Shown piece by piece: positions 364 to 13,872 of a stretch of DNA of 38,854 nt. The translations under genes and the position numbers were made by a program. Origin of the DNA: a bacterium (GTDB taxonomy: Bacteria > Patescibacteriota > Saccharimonadia > Saccharimonadales > UBA4665); the NCBI GenBank assembly GCA_021799595.1, contig JAJZAF010000009.1:1-38854 (forward strand), in the 5' to 3' direction. The first letter of the stretch is position 1. Each line of letters starts with the position of its first letter. The notes below the pieces were generated by a model that was not told the DNA's origin, searched no databases, and saw only the letters and a list, made by a program, of their open reading frames with translations.

Positions 364-819
364 ATGAAAAAGGTAATTATCGGCTTAGTGGTCTTGGCAG
401 TTTTTGTGGTGTATAGCATCGGTATACGTCACAAAGCTCCTATTCTTTCAAAACCGTCATCATTAGCAAATACAAACCCAACTACTTCAACAAATACAAC
501 GTCGGGAAGTGGTAATCCGCCGAACTCAAACTCCTCAGCTAGCTATAAAGATGGTACCTATACGGGCAGCGTTGCCGATGCATATTACGGTAATGTACAA
601 GTGGAGGTTACTATTTCTGGTGGCAAAATAACTGATGTTAAGTTTTTGCAATACCCAAATACACACCAAGTATCAGTGATAATTAATCAACAGGCTATGC
701 CTTATTTAAAACAAGAGGCTGTTCAAGCCCAAAGTGCGAATGTACAAATCATTTCCGGTGCAACTTTTACTTCTCAGGCCTTTCAGCAATCATTGCAGTC
801 AGCATTATCTCAAGCATAG
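364..819 (+). CDS. Membrane-anchored FMN-binding domain protein
   Basis: This 151-residue protein has an N-terminal hydrophobic segment (about residues 4-20), a Ser/Thr/Asn/Pro-rich linker (about 28-60) and one FMN-binding domain (about 62-151) of the NqrC/RnfG/PceC-like family. The motif SGATFTS (131-137) is the family site where FMN is joined to a threonine by a phosphoester bond; Thr134 is the expected acceptor. By family knowledge the domain sits outside the membrane and carries electrons. The next gene is the ApbE transferase that would attach the FMN. Its TAG stop is followed at once by the ATG of apbE, in the same reading frame. The acceptor motif and the ApbE neighbour make the assignment strong; the electron partner is unknown. 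Confidence 0.88.
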   Translation: MKKVIIGLVVLAVFVVYSIGIRHKAPILSKPSSLANTNPTTSTNTTSGSGNPPNSNSSASYKDGTYTGSVADAYYGNVQVEVTISGGKITDVKFLQYPNTHQVSVIINQQAMPYLKQEAVQAQSANVQIISGATFTSQAFQQSLQSALSQA

Positions 820-1557
820 ATGAAACACACACAACTCATTATGGGCATGCCTATTACTATAGAAATAAATGGACCCGCCAAACAGCGTGATCTTGCAACT
901 ATTTTTGATTATTTTCTCCATGTAGATAAACGCTATAGTACATATAAACCTGATAGTGAAGTTAGTTTATATAACGCTGGTAAGTCAATTGATGTACTTT
1001 CTTCCGAGCTACAGTTTGTGCTGGAGCTTTGTGAGAAAACAAGGATAGAAACTAATGGCTACTTTAATATAAAAAAACTTGATGGCTCAATTGATCCCTC
1101 CGGCCTTGTCAAAGGTTGGGCTATCCAAAATGCTGCAAACCAGTTGTATTTAGCTGGCTGGGACAACTTTTATATTGAAGCTGGTGGGGATGTGTTTGCA
1201 GCAGGTGTGAGCCCTAATAACAAGCCTTGGAAATTGGGCATACGCAATCCATTTAAGATTAATGAAATCATTAAAGTACTTAATGTAAGTGACTGCGGTG
1301 TAGCTACATCAGGAAATTACATTCGTGGCAACCATATTTATAATCCCAAAAGTGCCTATACTGCGCCGAGAGGCATTGTAAGTATAACTGTAGTCGGTCC
1401 TAATATTTATGAAGCAGACTGTATTGCAACAGCAGCCTTTGCTATGGGAAAACATGGCATAGCCTATATCGAGCAACGTAAAGGCATGGAAGGCTATATG
1501 GTGACTGATACCGCCATAGCGACGTTTACTACGGGATTTGAGGCTTATGTTGCTTAA
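820..1557 (+). CDS. apbE: FAD:protein FMN transferase (ApbE)
   Basis: ApbE moves FMN from FAD onto a threonine of flavoproteins. Family features in this 245-residue protein are MGMPITIEI at the N-terminus (usual MGT), DPSGLVKGWAI (about 88-98), AGGDVFAAG (about 121-129), SGNYIRGNHIYNP with the usual His region (about 164-177), and a C-terminal EADCIATAAFAMG that corresponds to the usual metal-binding DA.ATA segment. It is shorter than typical ApbE (about 300-350) and has no signal peptide or lipobox, whereas many bacterial ApbE proteins are exported. It starts directly after the TAG of the FMN-binding gene, in frame, without a Shine-Dalgarno, so translation probably depends on reinitiation or readthrough. 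It overlaps the next gene by 11 bp. The likely substrates are both neighbours. Confidence 0.88.
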   Translation: MKHTQLIMGMPITIEINGPAKQRDLATIFDYFLHVDKRYSTYKPDSEVSLYNAGKSIDVLSSELQFVLELCEKTRIETNGYFNIKKLDGSIDPSGLVKGWAIQNAANQLYLAGWDNFYIEAGGDVFAAGVSPNNKPWKLGIRNPFKINEIIKVLNVSDCGVATSGNYIRGNHIYNPKSAYTAPRGIVSITVVGPNIYEADCIATAAFAMGKHGIAYIEQRKGMEGYMVTDTAIATFTTGFEAYVA

Positions 1558-3079
1558 ATTCTTTCAACCAATAGATAACTTTATAGATGGCATATCTATG
1601 TACCGCTTACTGCTGTATTACTTGCTGGCTCTATTATTTGTTGCAATCGGGCTAAGTGCGCTTGGTGATATGCACTACAACCCCACACAAATCGCACTCT
1701 CGGCATCCATAGCTGTTTTTGCTTGCTGGATTATCAACAAAATCTTTGCATATATATTTGAAGCCCCCATTAATCCAGAATCATCGTTACTGACAGGTTT
1801 AATATTAGCTCTCATTATTCCACCAACTCTCCAAAACTTTGGTATTCTCTTTATTCTTGCGGCATCAGGGCTGGCAATTGCCTCCAAATATATACTTACC
1901 ATTGGAGAAAAACATATCTTTAACCCAGCGGCTGTTGCAGTAGTGCTGACTGCTCTTGGCCCCAGGCAAAGCGCCAGTTGGTGGACAGGAACAACTGTGA
2001 TGCTGCCGTTCATTATTATAGGTGGCATTTTCATTACCCGAAAGGTAAGACGTGTAAATATGGTTATCACATTTTTAGTAATTACGACAATTACCACTAC
2101 TGTTTTATCAATTACTGCCAACTCAAACGTTTTTACTAACCTTAGTAGCATGGTTACCAGTTCACCTGCCTTGTTTTTAGGGTTTGTGATGCTCACAGAG
2201 CCGTACACATCCCCGACTACCAAATATAAACAGCTATGGTATGCTGCGATAGTTGGCTTTCTGCTGGCACCTCAGGTACATATCGGACATATATATACAA
2301 CACCAGAGATTGCACTTATTATCGGGAACATTTTTGCTTTTATCGTTTCGTCAAAAACAAAACTATTTCCTATCCTTCGCCAGAAAGTTGTAATTGCATC
2401 AAACACGCTAGAATTCTCCTTTATACCGGACAAAAAATTAGCATTTAAACCTGGCCAATATATGGAATTTACTCTGCCTCATAGTAACCCTGACAGCAGA
2501 GGAAGTCGACGGTGGTTTACTATTGCCTCTTCTCCAACTGAAAACTTATTAAAGCTTGGCGTTAAGTTTTATAAGAAGAGCAGTAGCTATAAAAAAGCCA
2601 TGTTGGCTATGGACCAAAAGACGTCTATCGTAGCTGCACAAATAGCTGGCGATTTTGTTATGCCTAAAAATGCCAGCAAAAAACTTGTTTTTATTGCGGG
2701 AGGAATCGGCGTGACGCCTTTTAGAAGCATGGTTAAGTATCTGATTGATACCAAACAACAACGATCAGTACGCATGCTTTATTCAGCCCGAACAGAGTCA
2801 GACATAGCATATAAGGATGTCTTTGAAGCAGCCAACCAATCATTTAATATGCAAACGTTCTATGTTTTAGAACGTCAAAGTTCGCAACTGCCTAATAATC
2901 AAACGATAATTGGCAGCATAAGCAGTGCAGTCATTAGACAATATATCCCTGACTTCAAAGAATGCATGTTTTATATATCAGGTACACATCATATGGTTGA
3001 GGATATGCAAATAATTCTGCATGAACTTGGAGTTCACCATAGAAACATTAAGATTGATTTCTTCCCGGGCTATGTATAA
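1547..3079 (+). CDS. NqrB/RnfD-like membrane protein fused to a ferredoxin-NAD(P)H reductase module
   Basis: The N-terminal half (about 1-265) is a multi-spanning membrane domain of the NqrB/RnfD family, with PESSLLTGLILALIIPP and a FNPAAVAVVLTALG segment. TGTT near residue 147 lies where these proteins often carry a (S/T)GAT-type flavinylation site, but it departs from the consensus. The C-terminal half (about 270-510) is an FNR-type flavoprotein: RWFTIASSP (near 321) fits the FAD-binding RxYS/T motif, and GGIGVTPFRSM (near 384) is the NAD(P)-binding glycine motif. A single polypeptide could thus take electrons from NAD(P)H in the cytoplasm and pass them through the membrane, probably to the FMN protein at 364-819. 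A TTG at 1538 is an alternative start; the ATG at 1547 is preferred. Confidence 0.82.
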   Translation: MLLKFFQPIDNFIDGISMYRLLLYYLLALLFVAIGLSALGDMHYNPTQIALSASIAVFACWIINKIFAYIFEAPINPESSLLTGLILALIIPPTLQNFGILFILAASGLAIASKYILTIGEKHIFNPAAVAVVLTALGPRQSASWWTGTTVMLPFIIIGGIFITRKVRRVNMVITFLVITTITTTVLSITANSNVFTNLSSMVTSSPALFLGFVMLTEPYTSPTTKYKQLWYAAIVGFLLAPQVHIGHIYTTPEIALIIGNIFAFIVSSKTKLFPILRQKVVIASNTLEFSFIPDKKLAFKPGQYMEFTLPHSNPDSRGSRRWFTIASSPTENLLKLGVKFYKKSSSYKKAMLAMDQKTSIVAAQIAGDFVMPKNASKKLVFIAGGIGVTPFRSMVKYLIDTKQQRSVRMLYSARTESDIAYKDVFEAANQSFNMQTFYVLERQSSQLPNNQTIIGSISSAVIRQYIPDFKECMFYISGTHHMVEDMQIILHELGVHHRNIKIDFFPGYV

Positions 3080-3959: not shown

Positions 3960-4036
3960 GCCATCTTAGCTCAGCTGGCTAGAGCGTCGCTTTCGTAAAG
4001 CGGAGGTCTGGGGTTCGACTCCCCAAGGTGGCTCCA
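3960..4036 (+). tRNA. tRNA-Thr (anticodon CGT)
   Basis: The cloverleaf folds completely. The acceptor arms GCCATCT and AGGTGGC pair with one G-T; the anticodon stem TCGCT/AGCGG encloses the loop TTCGTAA; the T arm is TGGGG-TTCGACT-CCCCA. The anticodon CGT reads ACG (Thr). CCA is encoded at 4034-4036. The discriminator is T. Confidence 0.95.
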
Positions 4037-4041
4037 TATAA

Positions 4042-4116
4042 GCGGGTATTGTATAACGGTTATTATGTAGTCTTCCCAAGACTGAGATGCGGGTTCGACT
4101 CCCGCTACCCGCACCA
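4042..4116 (+). tRNA. tRNA-Gly (anticodon CCC)
   Basis: The acceptor GCGGGTA pairs fully with TACCCGC. The anticodon stem TAGTC/GACTG encloses the loop TTCCCAA, giving anticodon CCC (codon GGG). The T arm has GCGGG-TTCGACT-CCCGC. The discriminator is A and CCA is encoded. It lies 5 nt after tRNA-Thr, so both come from one transcript. The IS200-like remnant begins about 70 bp downstream. Confidence 0.95.
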
Positions 4117-4187: not shown

Positions 4188-4730
4188 CATGGACTTTAGT
4201 CCATGGGCCTAAGGTTCCCTGGAGCAGACACAAGGTCTTGTGTCTGCGCAAGCAGTCTGGGATGCTGGGGTTTTTTATGAAGAGAGGCCAGTACCATTAT
4301 TCACGGACCGCATTCTCGCTATCGTCTGCAGTACCACCTCGTCTGGATCCCGAAGTACCGACGTAGAGTCATGGCAGGTGATGTAGCATCATCTGTCCGG
4401 AAGCTGTTCTATGACTGCGCGCAGATGAATGACTGGTGGATCACCCGTCTGGCTGTTATGTCCGACCACGTACACTTGCTCCTTGAGCTGCCACCAACTG
4501 TTTCGGTATCGCAAGCCGTAAAAACCTTCAAAGACGGGCAGCAATCGGGCTTTGTGCCAGACACATCCTGAACTGGATGAATGGCTCTGGGGAAACAGCT
4601 TTTGGGCAGTGGGCTACTTCGCAGAGAGCGTCGGCAGAGTGACCGAGAAATGCTATCAAGTTATACATTGAGAATCAAAGAGACCACCCCAGTATGCCGA
4701 AACAGAGAAGCCTAGGACTTTAGTCCGAGG
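4188..4730 (+). mobile_element. Decayed IS200/IS605-type insertion sequence
   Basis: The element is bounded by two hairpins that share the core GGACTTTAGTCC. The left one is a perfect 8-bp stem (4188-4205) and the right one has 8 of 9 pairs (4711-4730). Subterminal hairpins instead of terminal inverted repeats are the mark of Y1-transposase elements. A third, 11-bp hairpin (GCAGACACAAG / CTTGTGTCTGC, 4224-4247) lies in the leader of the transposase gene, where IS200 elements carry a hairpin that limits expression. The exact ends are uncertain because these elements make no target duplication. Confidence 0.78.
4277..4723 (+). pseudogene. tnpA: Frameshifted IS200-like Y1 transposase (tnpA)
   Basis: Pieces of one protein appear in successive frames. 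The start is MKRGQYHYSRTAF (from 4277). After a shift near 4310 the frame reads HSRYRLQYHLVWIPKYRRRVMAG and then LAVMSDHVHLLLELPP, with the HUH-type metal-binding motif DHVHL. After a shift between about 4540 and 4570 it reads ELDEWLWGNSFWAVGYFAESVGRVTEK. After a shift near 4653 it reads IKLYIENQRDHPSMPKQRSLGL, with the probable catalytic tyrosine in KLYIENQ. These match the order and spacing of intact IS200 TnpA (about 140-150 residues). At least three frameshifts make it non-functional. Confidence 0.85.
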
Positions 4731-10008: not shown

Positions 10009-11385
10009 ATGGAAGGGCGAAGTGTACAGCTGGATGACGTCTGGCAAGCTGTTTTGGGCGAAATTGAGGTGTCACTTTCGAGAGGAAGTTTCATAACTTG
10101 GTTTAAAAACACTTGTCTATTAAAACAAAGTGAGGAGACAACTGTCGTGGGGGTGCCAAATGTATTTATTAAGCACCAGCTGGAGACAAAATTTGGCGAT
10201 CTTATTATTGATACTTTGCGGAAACAAGGCGCCTCTGTGAACCAAATTGAGTATAAAACCACTCCTCTCGCCAGCCGCTCCCGGGTTCTTGGTGAAGAGA
10301 ACGAAGGCGAACAGCCACAACTAACAACAAACGTCATTCATCAATCAGAGGCTAGCCTAAGACAATCTAGCAATGGTTTAAATGAACGCTATACAATGGA
10401 CAACTTTGTAGTCGGTGATGGTAATGAGCTAGCCTTTGCTGCCTGTCAGGCGGTATTGCAGCAACCAGGCATAAAATATAATCCGTTGTATCTTTATGGT
10501 GGCGTTGGTATTGGTAAAACCCATTTAATTCAGGCTGTGGGTAATGCTCTACAGGTTCGTAACCCAGACGCCAAAATCCTCTATATTGCAACCGAGCAGT
10601 TTGTCAGAGAGTTTGTAATGGCCTTGAAAAAGCGTTCTATGGCGGCTTTCGTCAACTATTACCGTTCAGCTGATGCCTTGATTGTTGATGATGTACAGTT
10701 CCTGGCAGATAAAGATAAAATTCAGGAGGAATTCTTTCATACGTTTAATACCCTGCACCAGGCAGATAAACAAATTATTATGAGCTCAGATAAGCCCCCA
10801 GGGGATATCGCTAAATTAGAGGACAGACTAAAATCTCGCTTTGCTGGCGGCATGAGTATCGATATGCATGCGCCAGACTTCGAGACACGGTGTGCTATTA
10901 TTCATACCAAAGCAGAGAGTCACCAGGCCGAACTTGAACCCGAGGTAGTTGAGTACCTTGCAACTACTATTCAATCAAACATTAGGGAGCTTGAGGGAGC
11001 ACTTAACCAGTTACTTGCTTGGTGTGAGGTTCGTTCGTTAAAACCTAGTGTCGCGATTGCTTCAAGTCTCCTGCAGGTTCACAAAGCTCGGCCAAAGCAT
11101 ATCAGCGCTAAACAAATTATCGAGCGCACCGCTCGCCATTTTCAGATACCTCTTGAGGACATGCTTGGACCAAAGCGGGATAAAGACATTGTGGTTCCCA
11201 GACAGGTAGCAATGTACATTTTGCATGAGGAATTACACTTGAGTTATCCCAAGATAGCTCATGAGCTGGGACGAAAGGATCATACCACGGCTATACACTC
11301 TGTAAGAAAAATTGCACAGTTGTCCCAGATTGATGTGTCACTAAAAAATACCATGGACAACATTAAGGAGCAGCTCTATGCCTAG
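10009..11385 (+). CDS. dnaA: Chromosomal replication initiator protein DnaA
   Basis: This 458-residue protein has the four-domain DnaA plan. Domain I (about 9-75, VWQAVLGEIEVSLSRGSFITW) is followed by a variable linker (about 85-125) and the AAA+ domain (about 126-340). Walker A is GGVGIGKTH (164-172), Walker B is ALIVDDVQFL (223-232) and LKSRFAGGM is the arginine-finger region. The C-terminal DNA-binding domain carries the signature GRKDHTTAIHSV (about 421-432). It starts replication by binding DnaA boxes, which are clustered both before and after the gene. It is transcribed toward dnaN and recF, away from T4SS operon A. Confidence 0.98.
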   Translation: MEGRSVQLDDVWQAVLGEIEVSLSRGSFITWFKNTCLLKQSEETTVVGVPNVFIKHQLETKFGDLIIDTLRKQGASVNQIEYKTTPLASRSRVLGEENEGEQPQLTTNVIHQSEASLRQSSNGLNERYTMDNFVVGDGNELAFAACQAVLQQPGIKYNPLYLYGGVGIGKTHLIQAVGNALQVRNPDAKILYIATEQFVREFVMALKKRSMAAFVNYYRSADALIVDDVQFLADKDKIQEEFFHTFNTLHQADKQIIMSSDKPPGDIAKLEDRLKSRFAGGMSIDMHAPDFETRCAIIHTKAESHQAELEPEVVEYLATTIQSNIRELEGALNQLLAWCEVRSLKPSVAIASSLLQVHKARPKHISAKQIIERTARHFQIPLEDMLGPKRDKDIVVPRQVAMYILHEELHLSYPKIAHELGRKDHTTAIHSVRKIAQLSQIDVSLKNTMDNIKEQLYA

Positions 11386-11659
11386 GTTGTGGATGGGGTG
11401 TGTGAAGATTGTGGCTTTGTTGTGTGGAAAAGCTTTTCTTTTCAGCGTATTATCCACAAGGTGTGTCGGGCTTTTTACTGTGTTGTCTATAAATAAGCCC
11501 TTTTTACGTTCTTTTTCCAACTTGTTTTCCCAAACAGTATCCACAACAAAAAACTTGTTTTTCTATCTGTCTTATAAAAAATTATACACATTTTCCACTC
11601 CACCAATAACAACTACTACTTGTATATAAATTAATTGTGGTGGGAAAAAGGAAAGCAAT
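11386..11659. other. oriC: Probable replication origin (oriC) between dnaA and dnaN
   Basis: This 274-bp AT-rich gap holds a DnaA-box cluster: a perfect TTATCCACA (11450-11458), TTATACACA (11582-11590), GTATCCACA (11537-11545), TGTGGAAAA (11423-11431), and weaker TGTGGATGG (11388-11396) and TTTTCCACT (11591-11599). The adjacent pair at 11582-11599 is followed by a short C-rich spacer (CCACC) and CTACTACTT (11613-11621). Read 3'-5' on the other strand this is GAT-GAT-GAA, the DnaA-trio pattern of bacterial unwinding elements, and an AT-rich run follows. dnaN has a Shine-Dalgarno (AAAAGGAAAG) at the end of the gap. Origin function is inferred from box density and location. Confidence 0.75.
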
Positions 11660-12754
11660 ATGAAACTACAAGTCACACAGGAAAATCTAAATAGAGCTCT
11701 CAGCTCCGTAGCTCGAATTGCAAGCAGTCGGGGTACACTACCAATACTCGCCAATGTCCTTATAAAGACCTCAAAGAATCGTTTAAGTTTGTCAGCAACA
11801 AACCTTGAAGTAGCTATCACTCATTTTATTGGAGCTAAGGTTGGTGACGGTGGAGCCATAACAGTGCCTGCTCGATTAATGCAGGATTTTATTGGTAGCT
11901 TACCAGAAGGAGTGATTAACCTGGAACTAGAAGGAACAAAATTACACATAACAACCGATCAGTATCAATCTGTAGTGAATGGTATTATTGCCGATGACTT
12001 CCCTGTCATGCCCACCATGAATAATGGATCATCATGGAAAATGTCTAGTGGCGTGTTAAAAAAGGCGCTCCAACAAGTGGTATTCACTGCCTCTTCTGAC
12101 GAAACCAGACCAGCACTCACTGGTGTTCTTATTAGAACCAGTGAAGGTGAGCTAGTCATGGCTGCTACAGACAGCTATAGGCTTGCAGAAAAAAGGCTTG
12201 GCAAAGAGAACCAAAATATCGAGCTTCTTATTCCAGCCACATCACTTAATGATCTACTAAGAATAATTGGTGACAGCGACGAAGAAGTTAAAGTTACACA
12301 TAATGAGCAACAGGTGCTTTTTCAAGTGGGTGACATTGAGCTGGTCACCAGGCTTTTAGAAGGTTCATACCCAGACTACCAAAAATTAATACCAAAAGAC
12401 TTTACAACTACAGTAAGGCTAAAACGGGCCGACCTGATAAGTATTACAAAAATATCCGGTCTGTTTGCTCGTGAAAGCGCTGGCAGCATTACAATCGATG
12501 TGGATACTGAGAAAAAGAAATTGAGTATTCGTTCAGTGGCCTCGCAACTTGGAGAAAACACGGCAACCGCACAAGCAAGCAAAGTAACGGGTGGTGGCTC
12601 CATTACCTTAAACTCCCGCTTTCTGCTTGACGCTCTCAGTGCCATGACTGGTGACGAGATTGTTTTTGGCTTTAACGGCAAGCTTGAGCCAACTCTGTTA
12701 CAAGACCCAAACGACTTAGACTATAGGCATGTTGTTATGCCCCTGAAAAGTTAA
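11660..12754 (+). CDS. dnaN: DNA polymerase III beta subunit (sliding clamp)
   Basis: This 364-residue protein has the normal clamp length and three repeated clamp domains (about 1-120, 125-240, 245-364). Typical segments are MKLQVTQENLNRALSSVARI at the start, LPILANVLIKT, SSDETRPALTGVLI in domain 2 and a C-terminal YRHVVMPLKS that corresponds to the usual VMPM(R/K). The clamp holds DNA polymerase on the template. It follows the origin region and is followed closely by recF. The start has a good Shine-Dalgarno. Confidence 0.98.
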   Translation: MKLQVTQENLNRALSSVARIASSRGTLPILANVLIKTSKNRLSLSATNLEVAITHFIGAKVGDGGAITVPARLMQDFIGSLPEGVINLELEGTKLHITTDQYQSVVNGIIADDFPVMPTMNNGSSWKMSSGVLKKALQQVVFTASSDETRPALTGVLIRTSEGELVMAATDSYRLAEKRLGKENQNIELLIPATSLNDLLRIIGDSDEEVKVTHNEQQVLFQVGDIELVTRLLEGSYPDYQKLIPKDFTTTVRLKRADLISITKISGLFARESAGSITIDVDTEKKKLSIRSVASQLGENTATAQASKVTGGGSITLNSRFLLDALSAMTGDEIVFGFNGKLEPTLLQDPNDLDYRHVVMPLKS

Positions 12755-12786
12755 ATCAGGATTAATTGTGGCTATACAATAAGAAA

Positions 12787-13872
12787 ATGATAAAGAGTTT
12801 GCGACTGCAACAATTTCGTTCATACAAAGATGCATCATTTGAGTTCAGTTCAAGAGTTAACATAATTGTTGGGCCGAACGCCAGCGGCAAGACAAGTCTT
12901 TTAGAAGCAATGCTTGTGTTATGTAGGGGTAGCTCATATAGGGCAAAAGACAGTGAACTTGTACAGCTCAACAAGACCTGGAGTCGGCTGGAGGCTGAGC
13001 TAATAGACGGAAAGAAACGAGTAATTAAAATAAAGACAAACCCAACACCCGAAAAAACCTTTGAAGTAGACGAAAGACCACAAAAAAATTTGTCCGAGAC
13101 CAATAAAATACCGTCCGTATTATTTGAGCCAGACCATTTGCAATTGCTCTATGGAAACCCCGAAAGGCGAAGAGATTATTTAGACGATCTACTAGAACAG
13201 ACAGAGTTGGGGTATGAAACAATACGGAGAAAGTATAGACGAGCACTTATGCAACGAAATGCTCTACTGAAACAGATCAACCCACCCAACCAAGCCGAGC
13301 TCTTTCCCTGGAATGTACGCCTTTGTGAGTTAGGAGGGAAAATAATACGGGCACGGAGCAGGCTGGTAGAGCAAGCCAACAAGCAAGCAGAAGAGATATA
13401 TAAAAACTTGTCAGGAACGAAAACTCGCTTTGAACTTAAATATCAGACAACGCTGCAAGAAGGATACGAAAGTAATTTTCTAAGGGAACTAGAGGTGAAC
13501 ACAAAATCTGACCACAAAAAAGGGTTCACAACTACCGGTCCACACCGAGATGATCTAATTGTTTTATTTAGCGATCACCCAGTTCAGGAGATAGCCTCAC
13601 GAGGCGAGGTGCGTACTGGAGTGCTGACTCTTAAAATTAGTGAGCTACAACTTATAAGAGATGTAAAAAACCAGACCCCTCTCCTCTTACTTGACGATGT
13701 ATACAGCGAACTAGACGGCAAACACCGCCATAGTCTTACTGATTATATATGTAATAACTACCAAGTCTTTATTACTACTACCGATACAGATGATGCCCTA
13801 AGACATATTGGAAAAGGGCACAAAATAATACAAATTAAACCTGGGAAGAACGGAACTAGTCACTCTGAATGA
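12787..13872 (+). CDS. recF: DNA replication and repair protein RecF
   Basis: The ATG at 12787 gives the canonical start MIKSLRLQQFRSYKDASFEF (361 residues). The frame extends upstream to a TTG at 12766, but those residues are not RecF-like. Walker A is GPNASGKT (29-36), the ABC signature is SRGEVRTGVLTLK (usual SxGxxR) and Walker B is LLLLDDVYSELD, followed by the D-loop. RecF is an SMC-like ATPase that loads RecA at gaps in recombinational repair. A TACAAT hexamer lies 6 nt before the ATG. The last 17 bp overlap the end of the convergent beta-propeller gene, so no terminator separates the two. Confidence 0.95.
   Translation: MIKSLRLQQFRSYKDASFEFSSRVNIIVGPNASGKTSLLEAMLVLCRGSSYRAKDSELVQLNKTWSRLEAELIDGKKRVIKIKTNPTPEKTFEVDERPQKNLSETNKIPSVLFEPDHLQLLYGNPERRRDYLDDLLEQTELGYETIRRKYRRALMQRNALLKQINPPNQAELFPWNVRLCELGGKIIRARSRLVEQANKQAEEIYKNLSGTKTRFELKYQTTLQEGYESNFLRELEVNTKSDHKKGFTTTGPHRDDLIVLFSDHPVQEIASRGEVRTGVLTLKISELQLIRDVKNQTPLLLLDDVYSELDGKHRHSLTDYICNNYQVFITTTDTDDALRHIGKGHKIIQIKPGKNGTSHSE

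Follow-up and report, generated by a model that had tools for sequence, protein, structure and literature searches.

The window, by which we mean the whole stretch of 38,854 nucleotides that was analysed, carries three consecutive genes on the plus strand. The first (364-819) encodes a membrane-anchored FMN_bind protein of 151 amino acids (PF04205, E 5.9e-13), the second (820-1557) is apbE, coding for a short form of the FAD:protein FMN transferase with 245 amino acids (PF02424, E 3.4e-41), and the third (1547-3079) encodes a protein of 510 amino acids in which an NqrB/RnfD-like membrane domain (PF03116) is fused to an FNR-type reductase domain (PF00175). All the domain matches of the trio exceeded the Pfam cut-offs, and the adjacency of an FMN domain, ApbE and a membrane-reductase fusion that the first-pass annotation had claimed for this place was confirmed for the three genes. 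The likeliest start of the fusion is ATG 1547, from which the reading frame overlaps the 3′ end of apbE by 11 bases; TTG 1538 is the mechanical start of the open reading frame only. The TAG of the FMN_bind gene is directly followed, in the same frame, by the ATG of apbE. Read-through of this TAG to give an FMN-ApbE fusion was considered and discarded, since relatives have these genes overlapping, with frames that differ.

The FMN_bind protein begins with a transmembrane segment, continues with a linker rich in Ser, Thr, Pro, and Asn, and ends with the FMN_bind domain (residues 74-149); its closest solved structure is 8p2a (E 1.7e-16). By comparison with [S/T]GA[S/T], given as the target motif of ApbE by Meheust and collaborators (PMC8238504), the flavinylation site was predicted at S131-G-A-T134 (754-765, plus strand), within the stretch I-S131-G-A-T134. 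Thr134 (codon 763-765), already proposed as the FMN residue, is predicted to carry FMN attached by ApbE; among relatives the Gly of the motif was conserved in 39/39 and the Ala in 38/39. Export was judged from hydrophobicity and charge. The N-terminal anchor was present in 58 of 63 related FMN proteins, and in 55 of the 63 the charge balance, more positive before the anchor than after it, predicts an FMN domain on the outside, while the window protein bears positive charges on both sides of its anchor.

The product of apbE aligned with solved ApbEs (E 1.2e-17), and the positions GGD, SG, R, H, and AD..AT, belonging to the ApbE fold and to the FAD/Mg motifs, were conserved in 40 relatives. An N-terminal hydrophobic segment was sought with a 17-residue hydropathy window and a threshold of 1.7, including the stretch from the start codon upstream to the previous stop, and it was found in none of 75 related ApbEs, 56 of them beside fusions and 19 elsewhere in Saccharibacteria. 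The maximum hydropathy among the first 40 relatives was 1.52 against 1.97 in the E. coli ApbE used as control, which is a modest margin. On this hydropathy basis neither the signal peptide nor the lipobox of the extracytosolic ApbE branch was detected. In other Saccharibacteria (loci L136-L151) there is a second kind of ApbE, in open frames of 304-384 amino acids without N-terminal hydrophobic segment, which at many loci adjoins an open reading frame with an FNR domain of about 320-460 amino acids; the two probably form a separate flavinylation system.

The membrane domain of the fusion (1550-2365, plus strand; PF03116, E 8.7e-13) has about 10 helices in the fold model. Residues of the fusion are numbered here from codon 1550, so that in the protein read from ATG 1547 each number increases by one. 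The model of the whole fusion had a pLDDT of 86.5; the membrane domain was also modelled alone (pLDDT 88), because the FNR domain dominated the fold search with the whole protein, and its best PDB matches were RnfD (9eri, 8rbq, and 8ahx) and NqrB (7xk3). In NqrB of V. cholerae riboflavin is held, among others, by T162, N200, N203, A205, and D346 (PMC10643135). In a profile alignment these residues mapped to T82, H122, N125, A127, and E217 of the fusion, which were conserved in 44, 43, 45, 41, and 45 of 45 fusions, respectively. The noncovalent flavin site is thus kept, with ligands that are conservative or substituted, and the changes of D346 to E and of N200 to H may reflect a different flavin or a different potential. 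The covalent FMN motif [ST]GA[ST] was found in 0/45 fusion membrane domains, and the PF03116 match of the fusion skips profile positions 136-170. A noncovalent site kept together with an absent covalent motif agrees with the description of the NQR/RNF-like subunit in PMC11334425, which lacks the covalent Thr and retains an apparent noncovalent site.

Other cofactors were also considered for the fusion. Covalent FMN at a WWTGTT stretch of the membrane domain was rejected, given that the stretch is not conserved. Haem in this domain is unlikely, since H122, its only near-invariant His, takes the position of N200 of NqrB, a residue in contact with riboflavin. A FeS centre was likewise rejected, as relatives share no conserved cysteine pattern; the window fusion has two cysteines only.

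The C-terminal half of the fusion (2366-3076, plus strand; PF00175, E 1.3e-15) is predicted to be a cytosolic FAD/NAD(P)H reductase domain, and it matches the FNR domains of flavohaemoglobin, NqrF, and flavin reductases. It contains the motifs RRWFTIASSP, GGIGVTPF, YISG, and DFFPGY, of which R320/R321 and G384/G385/G387 were invariant in the 45 fusion sequences.

The genome to which the window belongs has 0.90 Mb and is 99% complete. Profile searches found in it a single ApbE, a single FMN_bind gene, and a single gene of NqrB type, and searches with PF03116 and PF04205 matched this locus only, with no second gene of NqrB/RnfD or NqrC/RnfG type. Full nqr or rnf operons employing these proteins as ordinary subunits, the case that the first-pass annotation had named as refuting its reading, are therefore not what this genome holds, each component being present once.

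A promoter scan of the locus returned a number of sites not above that in shuffles. Beyond the trio no neighbour is conserved, except for a response regulator and a histidine kinase upstream in some Saccharibacteria. At L096 (8856-10516), L105, and L117 they immediately precede the FMN gene and share its strand, the regulator being of OmpR type, with both identities checked against Pfam for L096; the arrangement suggests control of the operon by a signal in several Saccharibacteria. Elsewhere in the window, between 4779 and 24074 on the minus strand, genes resembling type IV secretion components flank dnaA-dnaN-recF-like replication genes (10009-13872); the set comprises two VirB4/TraG ATPases, T4SS pilin/VirB6-like proteins, PrgI, a weak M23 match, and a CHAP protein. 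By eye, a short open reading frame at 4371-4571 with an HVHLL-type stretch resembles a fragment of an IS200/IS605 transposase, and two tRNA-like genes are located just before it in window coordinates, at about 3961-4115.

Full-length fusions were found in 59 of 380 genomes sampled across the phylum, and full-length or split fusions in 24 of 60 genomes comprising the own genome and its nearest relatives; they are also present in Ktedonosporobacter and Arthrobacter. A search for the same cluster in CPR genomes, which had been recommended as a check, showed that the order recurs: of 66 loci, at least 45 have FMN-ApbE-fusion. These counts are slightly inflated by contigs entered twice (e.g., L007/L120 and L020/L131). 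Among the remaining loci some are cut by contig ends, some have the FMN gene directly before the fusion, and in some the partners were undetected by sequence search. Of the 24 fusion genomes among the nearest 60, only G019, whose fusion match is incomplete, showed no ApbE.

The first-pass annotation, from which the assignment of the window to Saccharibacteria is taken, had started from the premise that Saccharibacteria lack a respiratory chain, and this premise fails for the present genome, which carries genes of cyoABCDE type for a bo3-type oxidase on contig 5 at about 36843-41619 (L094, 6844-11620). COX1 was identified by profile match and its neighbours on the same strand were read by eye as cyoA, C, D, and E; a polyprenyl synthetase-like and a FAD-linked oxidase-like gene were seen, also by eye, a few kb from this operon. 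Soil Saccharibacteria with cyo have been published (PMC6031116, PMC8407418), and 45 of the 60 nearest genomes carry a terminal oxidase. In the sample of 380 genomes, 16 had both the fusion and COX1, 13 COX1 only, 43 the fusion only, and 308 neither, which gives an odds ratio of 8.8 (p 2e-7) for the raw sample with phylogeny ignored; with phylogeny equally ignored, the association had p 0.009 within the class and p 7e-5 outside it. This association points to life with oxygen, but most fusion genomes lack COX1.

Taking into account the domains, their sole copies, the conserved cluster, the fold, the riboflavin-pocket residues, and the invariant FNR motifs, which together support a reading as an export system, the locus probably encodes an NQR/RNF-like module with a single electron path from NAD(P)H to an external FMN and with no ion pumping by itself. 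In the cytosolic FNR domain FAD would accept hydride from NAD(P)H, and from FAD single electrons would pass to the noncovalent flavin in the NqrB/RnfD-like membrane domain. The buried flavin would then reduce the FMN that Thr134 of the FMN_bind protein, tethered to the membrane, carries on the outer side, and this protein would in turn reduce an external acceptor, which could be ferric iron, oxygen, a scavenged quinone, or a soluble shuttle. NAD(P)+ would be regenerated without ion pumping by the module itself. The first three of these steps (NAD(P)H, FAD, and buried flavin) are based on homologous parts with known cofactors, while the direction of the electrons, the identity of the flavin, and the acceptor are what we infer; the cluster contains no acceptor gene. 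A path from NAD(P)H to an external flavin without the other Nqr or Rnf subunits, as the first-pass annotation had put forward, has good support from the domains, their conservation, the fold, and the literature, where the same interpretation of this architecture is already published (PMC8238504, PMC11334425). For a delivery of electrons to a host, which that annotation had also raised, the data gave no support. The open-licence literature yielded no biochemistry for the protein family of the fusion.

The outward flow proposed here is the reverse of that in NQR and RNF, because in NQR the electrons of the external FMN subunit travel inward through NqrB (PMC10643135), and through RnfD likewise when RNF runs from ferredoxin to NAD+ (PMC11889175). 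These precedents would favour a system in which an external donor feeds the FMN protein and NAD(P)+ is reduced inside. We consider this improbable, given that no conserved gene for an external oxidase or donor lies nearby and that the PF03116 and PF04205 searches found no further coupling subunit of NQR/RNF type to drive the uphill flow. The homology to NqrB would also be compatible with an ion-pumping NADH dehydrogenase, as Starr et al. 2018 speculated for such a protein, but a conserved cysteine set is missing, the same searches did not point to a complete NQR/RNF complex, and the role found for RnfD itself was confined to electron transfer (PMC11889175); Na+ pumping by the fusion is unsupported, and this reading is very improbable.

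The acceptor may instead be named more narrowly, with the module feeding an aerobic chain in which NADH electrons would go towards oxygen through scavenged quinone and cyo or by direct reaction, the module serving as an oxidase for redox balance. Such a feeder would be a sub-case of the export module and a possible one, although we hold it to be rather less than likely: the cyo operon of the own genome, the co-occurrence of fusion and COX1 (phylogeny ignored), and the ubiquinol oxidases carried by soil CPR (PMC8407418) speak for it, but COX1 is missing from 43 of the 59 fusion genomes, which thus do without the oxidase, and among the 60 nearest genomes there are 24 in which COX1 was found and the fusion was not. 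A different alternative concerns the side of the membrane. If the anchor of the FMN_bind protein were oriented N-out, its domain would be cytosolic, and flavinylation and electron transfer would both be internal. This would suit the related ApbEs, all devoid of an export segment, and the positive charges flanking the anchor of the window protein on either side; it is nevertheless improbable in view of the long Ser/Thr/Pro/Asn-rich linker, which is typical of surface proteins, of the charge balance in most relatives, and of the external location of the homologues RnfG and NqrC.

With the export module as the preferred reading, a key aspect is the place where FMN is attached. The first-pass annotation had ApbE acting on an external protein; the target is indeed predicted to be outside, but the enzyme shows no sign of following it there. 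Cytosolic ApbEs have precedents, such as the one in Klebsiella, where the target is cytosolic too (PMC12052999), and the extracytosolic ApbE of Listeria depends on exported FAD (PMC9973259). Judged from sequence, ApbE looks cytosolic and its only candidate target tethered outside, which makes a conflict of topology. Considering that ApbE lacks an export segment, it may be proposed, less firmly than the export of electrons, that the flavin is attached in the cytosol, either ahead of the export of the FMN_bind protein or while it proceeds: it is possible, if somewhat short of an even chance, that the FMN transferase of CPR and of the other bacteria with this system works inside and that the FMN_bind product is exported already flavinylated. 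Flavinylation inside would fit cells unable to make or secrete spare FAD, because no RibF (the FAD synthetase/flavokinase, PF06574/PF01687) was matched in any contig of the own genome; PF06574 (FAD_syn) reached the cut-off in 0/60 nearest genomes. The genome encodes flavoproteins despite having no recognisable RibF, so the flavin cofactor must either come from import or be the product of an enzyme not yet recognised. That ApbE lacks an export signal was not seen discussed in the accessible portions of PMC8238504 and PMC11334425 or in other open-licence literature, where no paper joining Saccharibacteria and flavinylation was found either. This conflict between a signal-less ApbE, a tethered outside target, and the lack of a recognisable FAD synthetase is the part most worth testing.

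Should the module function in the way proposed, many seemingly fermentative CPR could dump reducing power outside with three genes. Such electron dumping is a published hypothesis, for which the open-licence papers offered no biochemical proof. The first-pass annotation had considered the arrangement notable; the architecture was published in 2018 for a Saccharibacterium (PMC6031116), in 2021 (PMC8238504), and in 2024 (PMC11334425), and in the last two papers its occurrence in CPR, the presumed outward flow, and the missing covalent site are already described, leaving the signal-less ApbE as the only point not found discussed in the open-licence literature.

Comparison with known systems places the trio as follows. 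SpNOX and the DUOX/ferric reductases, retrieved by the fold search, likewise join a membrane electron carrier to a cytosolic FNR domain, but their carrier has haems and an unrelated membrane fold, and long matches had an rmsd of about 15 Å or more; only the FNR domain is related. Extracytosolic ApbEs such as Listeria FmnB and E. coli ApbE differ from the window ApbE, which has no export segment. With Na+-NQR and RNF the trio shares the NqrB/RnfD fold and riboflavin pocket, an NqrC/RnfG-like FMN subunit, and an NqrF-like FAD/NADH domain, but it has only these NqrB-, NqrC-, and NqrF-like parts, one electron path instead of two, no FeS clusters, and a membrane domain free of covalent FMN; the full set, to which NqrD/E or RnfA/E and an FeS path would belong, was not found, the PF03116 and PF04205 matches being confined to this locus and the fusion cysteines unconserved. 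A two-domain NqrF/NqrB protein was described in Candidatus Teamsevenus rhizospherense, a soil Saccharibacterium with cyo (Starr et al. 2018, PMC6031116), for which the authors report a FeS domain and suggest Na+ translocation, whereas the window fusion has only two cysteines and no conserved set of them, the comparison being made by description. The closest counterpart is the NQR/RNF-like flavinylation system, defined in 2021 mainly from Actinobacteria and CPR (PMC8238504) and modelled in 2024 for the complex of Ktedonobacter racemifer (PMC11334425). The window fusion has the N-terminal PF03116 membrane domain and the C-terminal PF00175 domain of that system, ApbE and FMN_bind lie within five genes of it, at least one of them (FMN_bind, by hydrophobicity and charge) with an export signal, and the membrane domain lacks the flavinylation Thr of NqrB/RnfD (0/45 sequences). 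The genes are the same (ApbE, an external FMN_bind protein, and a fusion of NqrB/RnfD with an NqrF-type NAD-binding domain), the covalent Thr is absent there as here, and no architectural difference separates the locus from that system.
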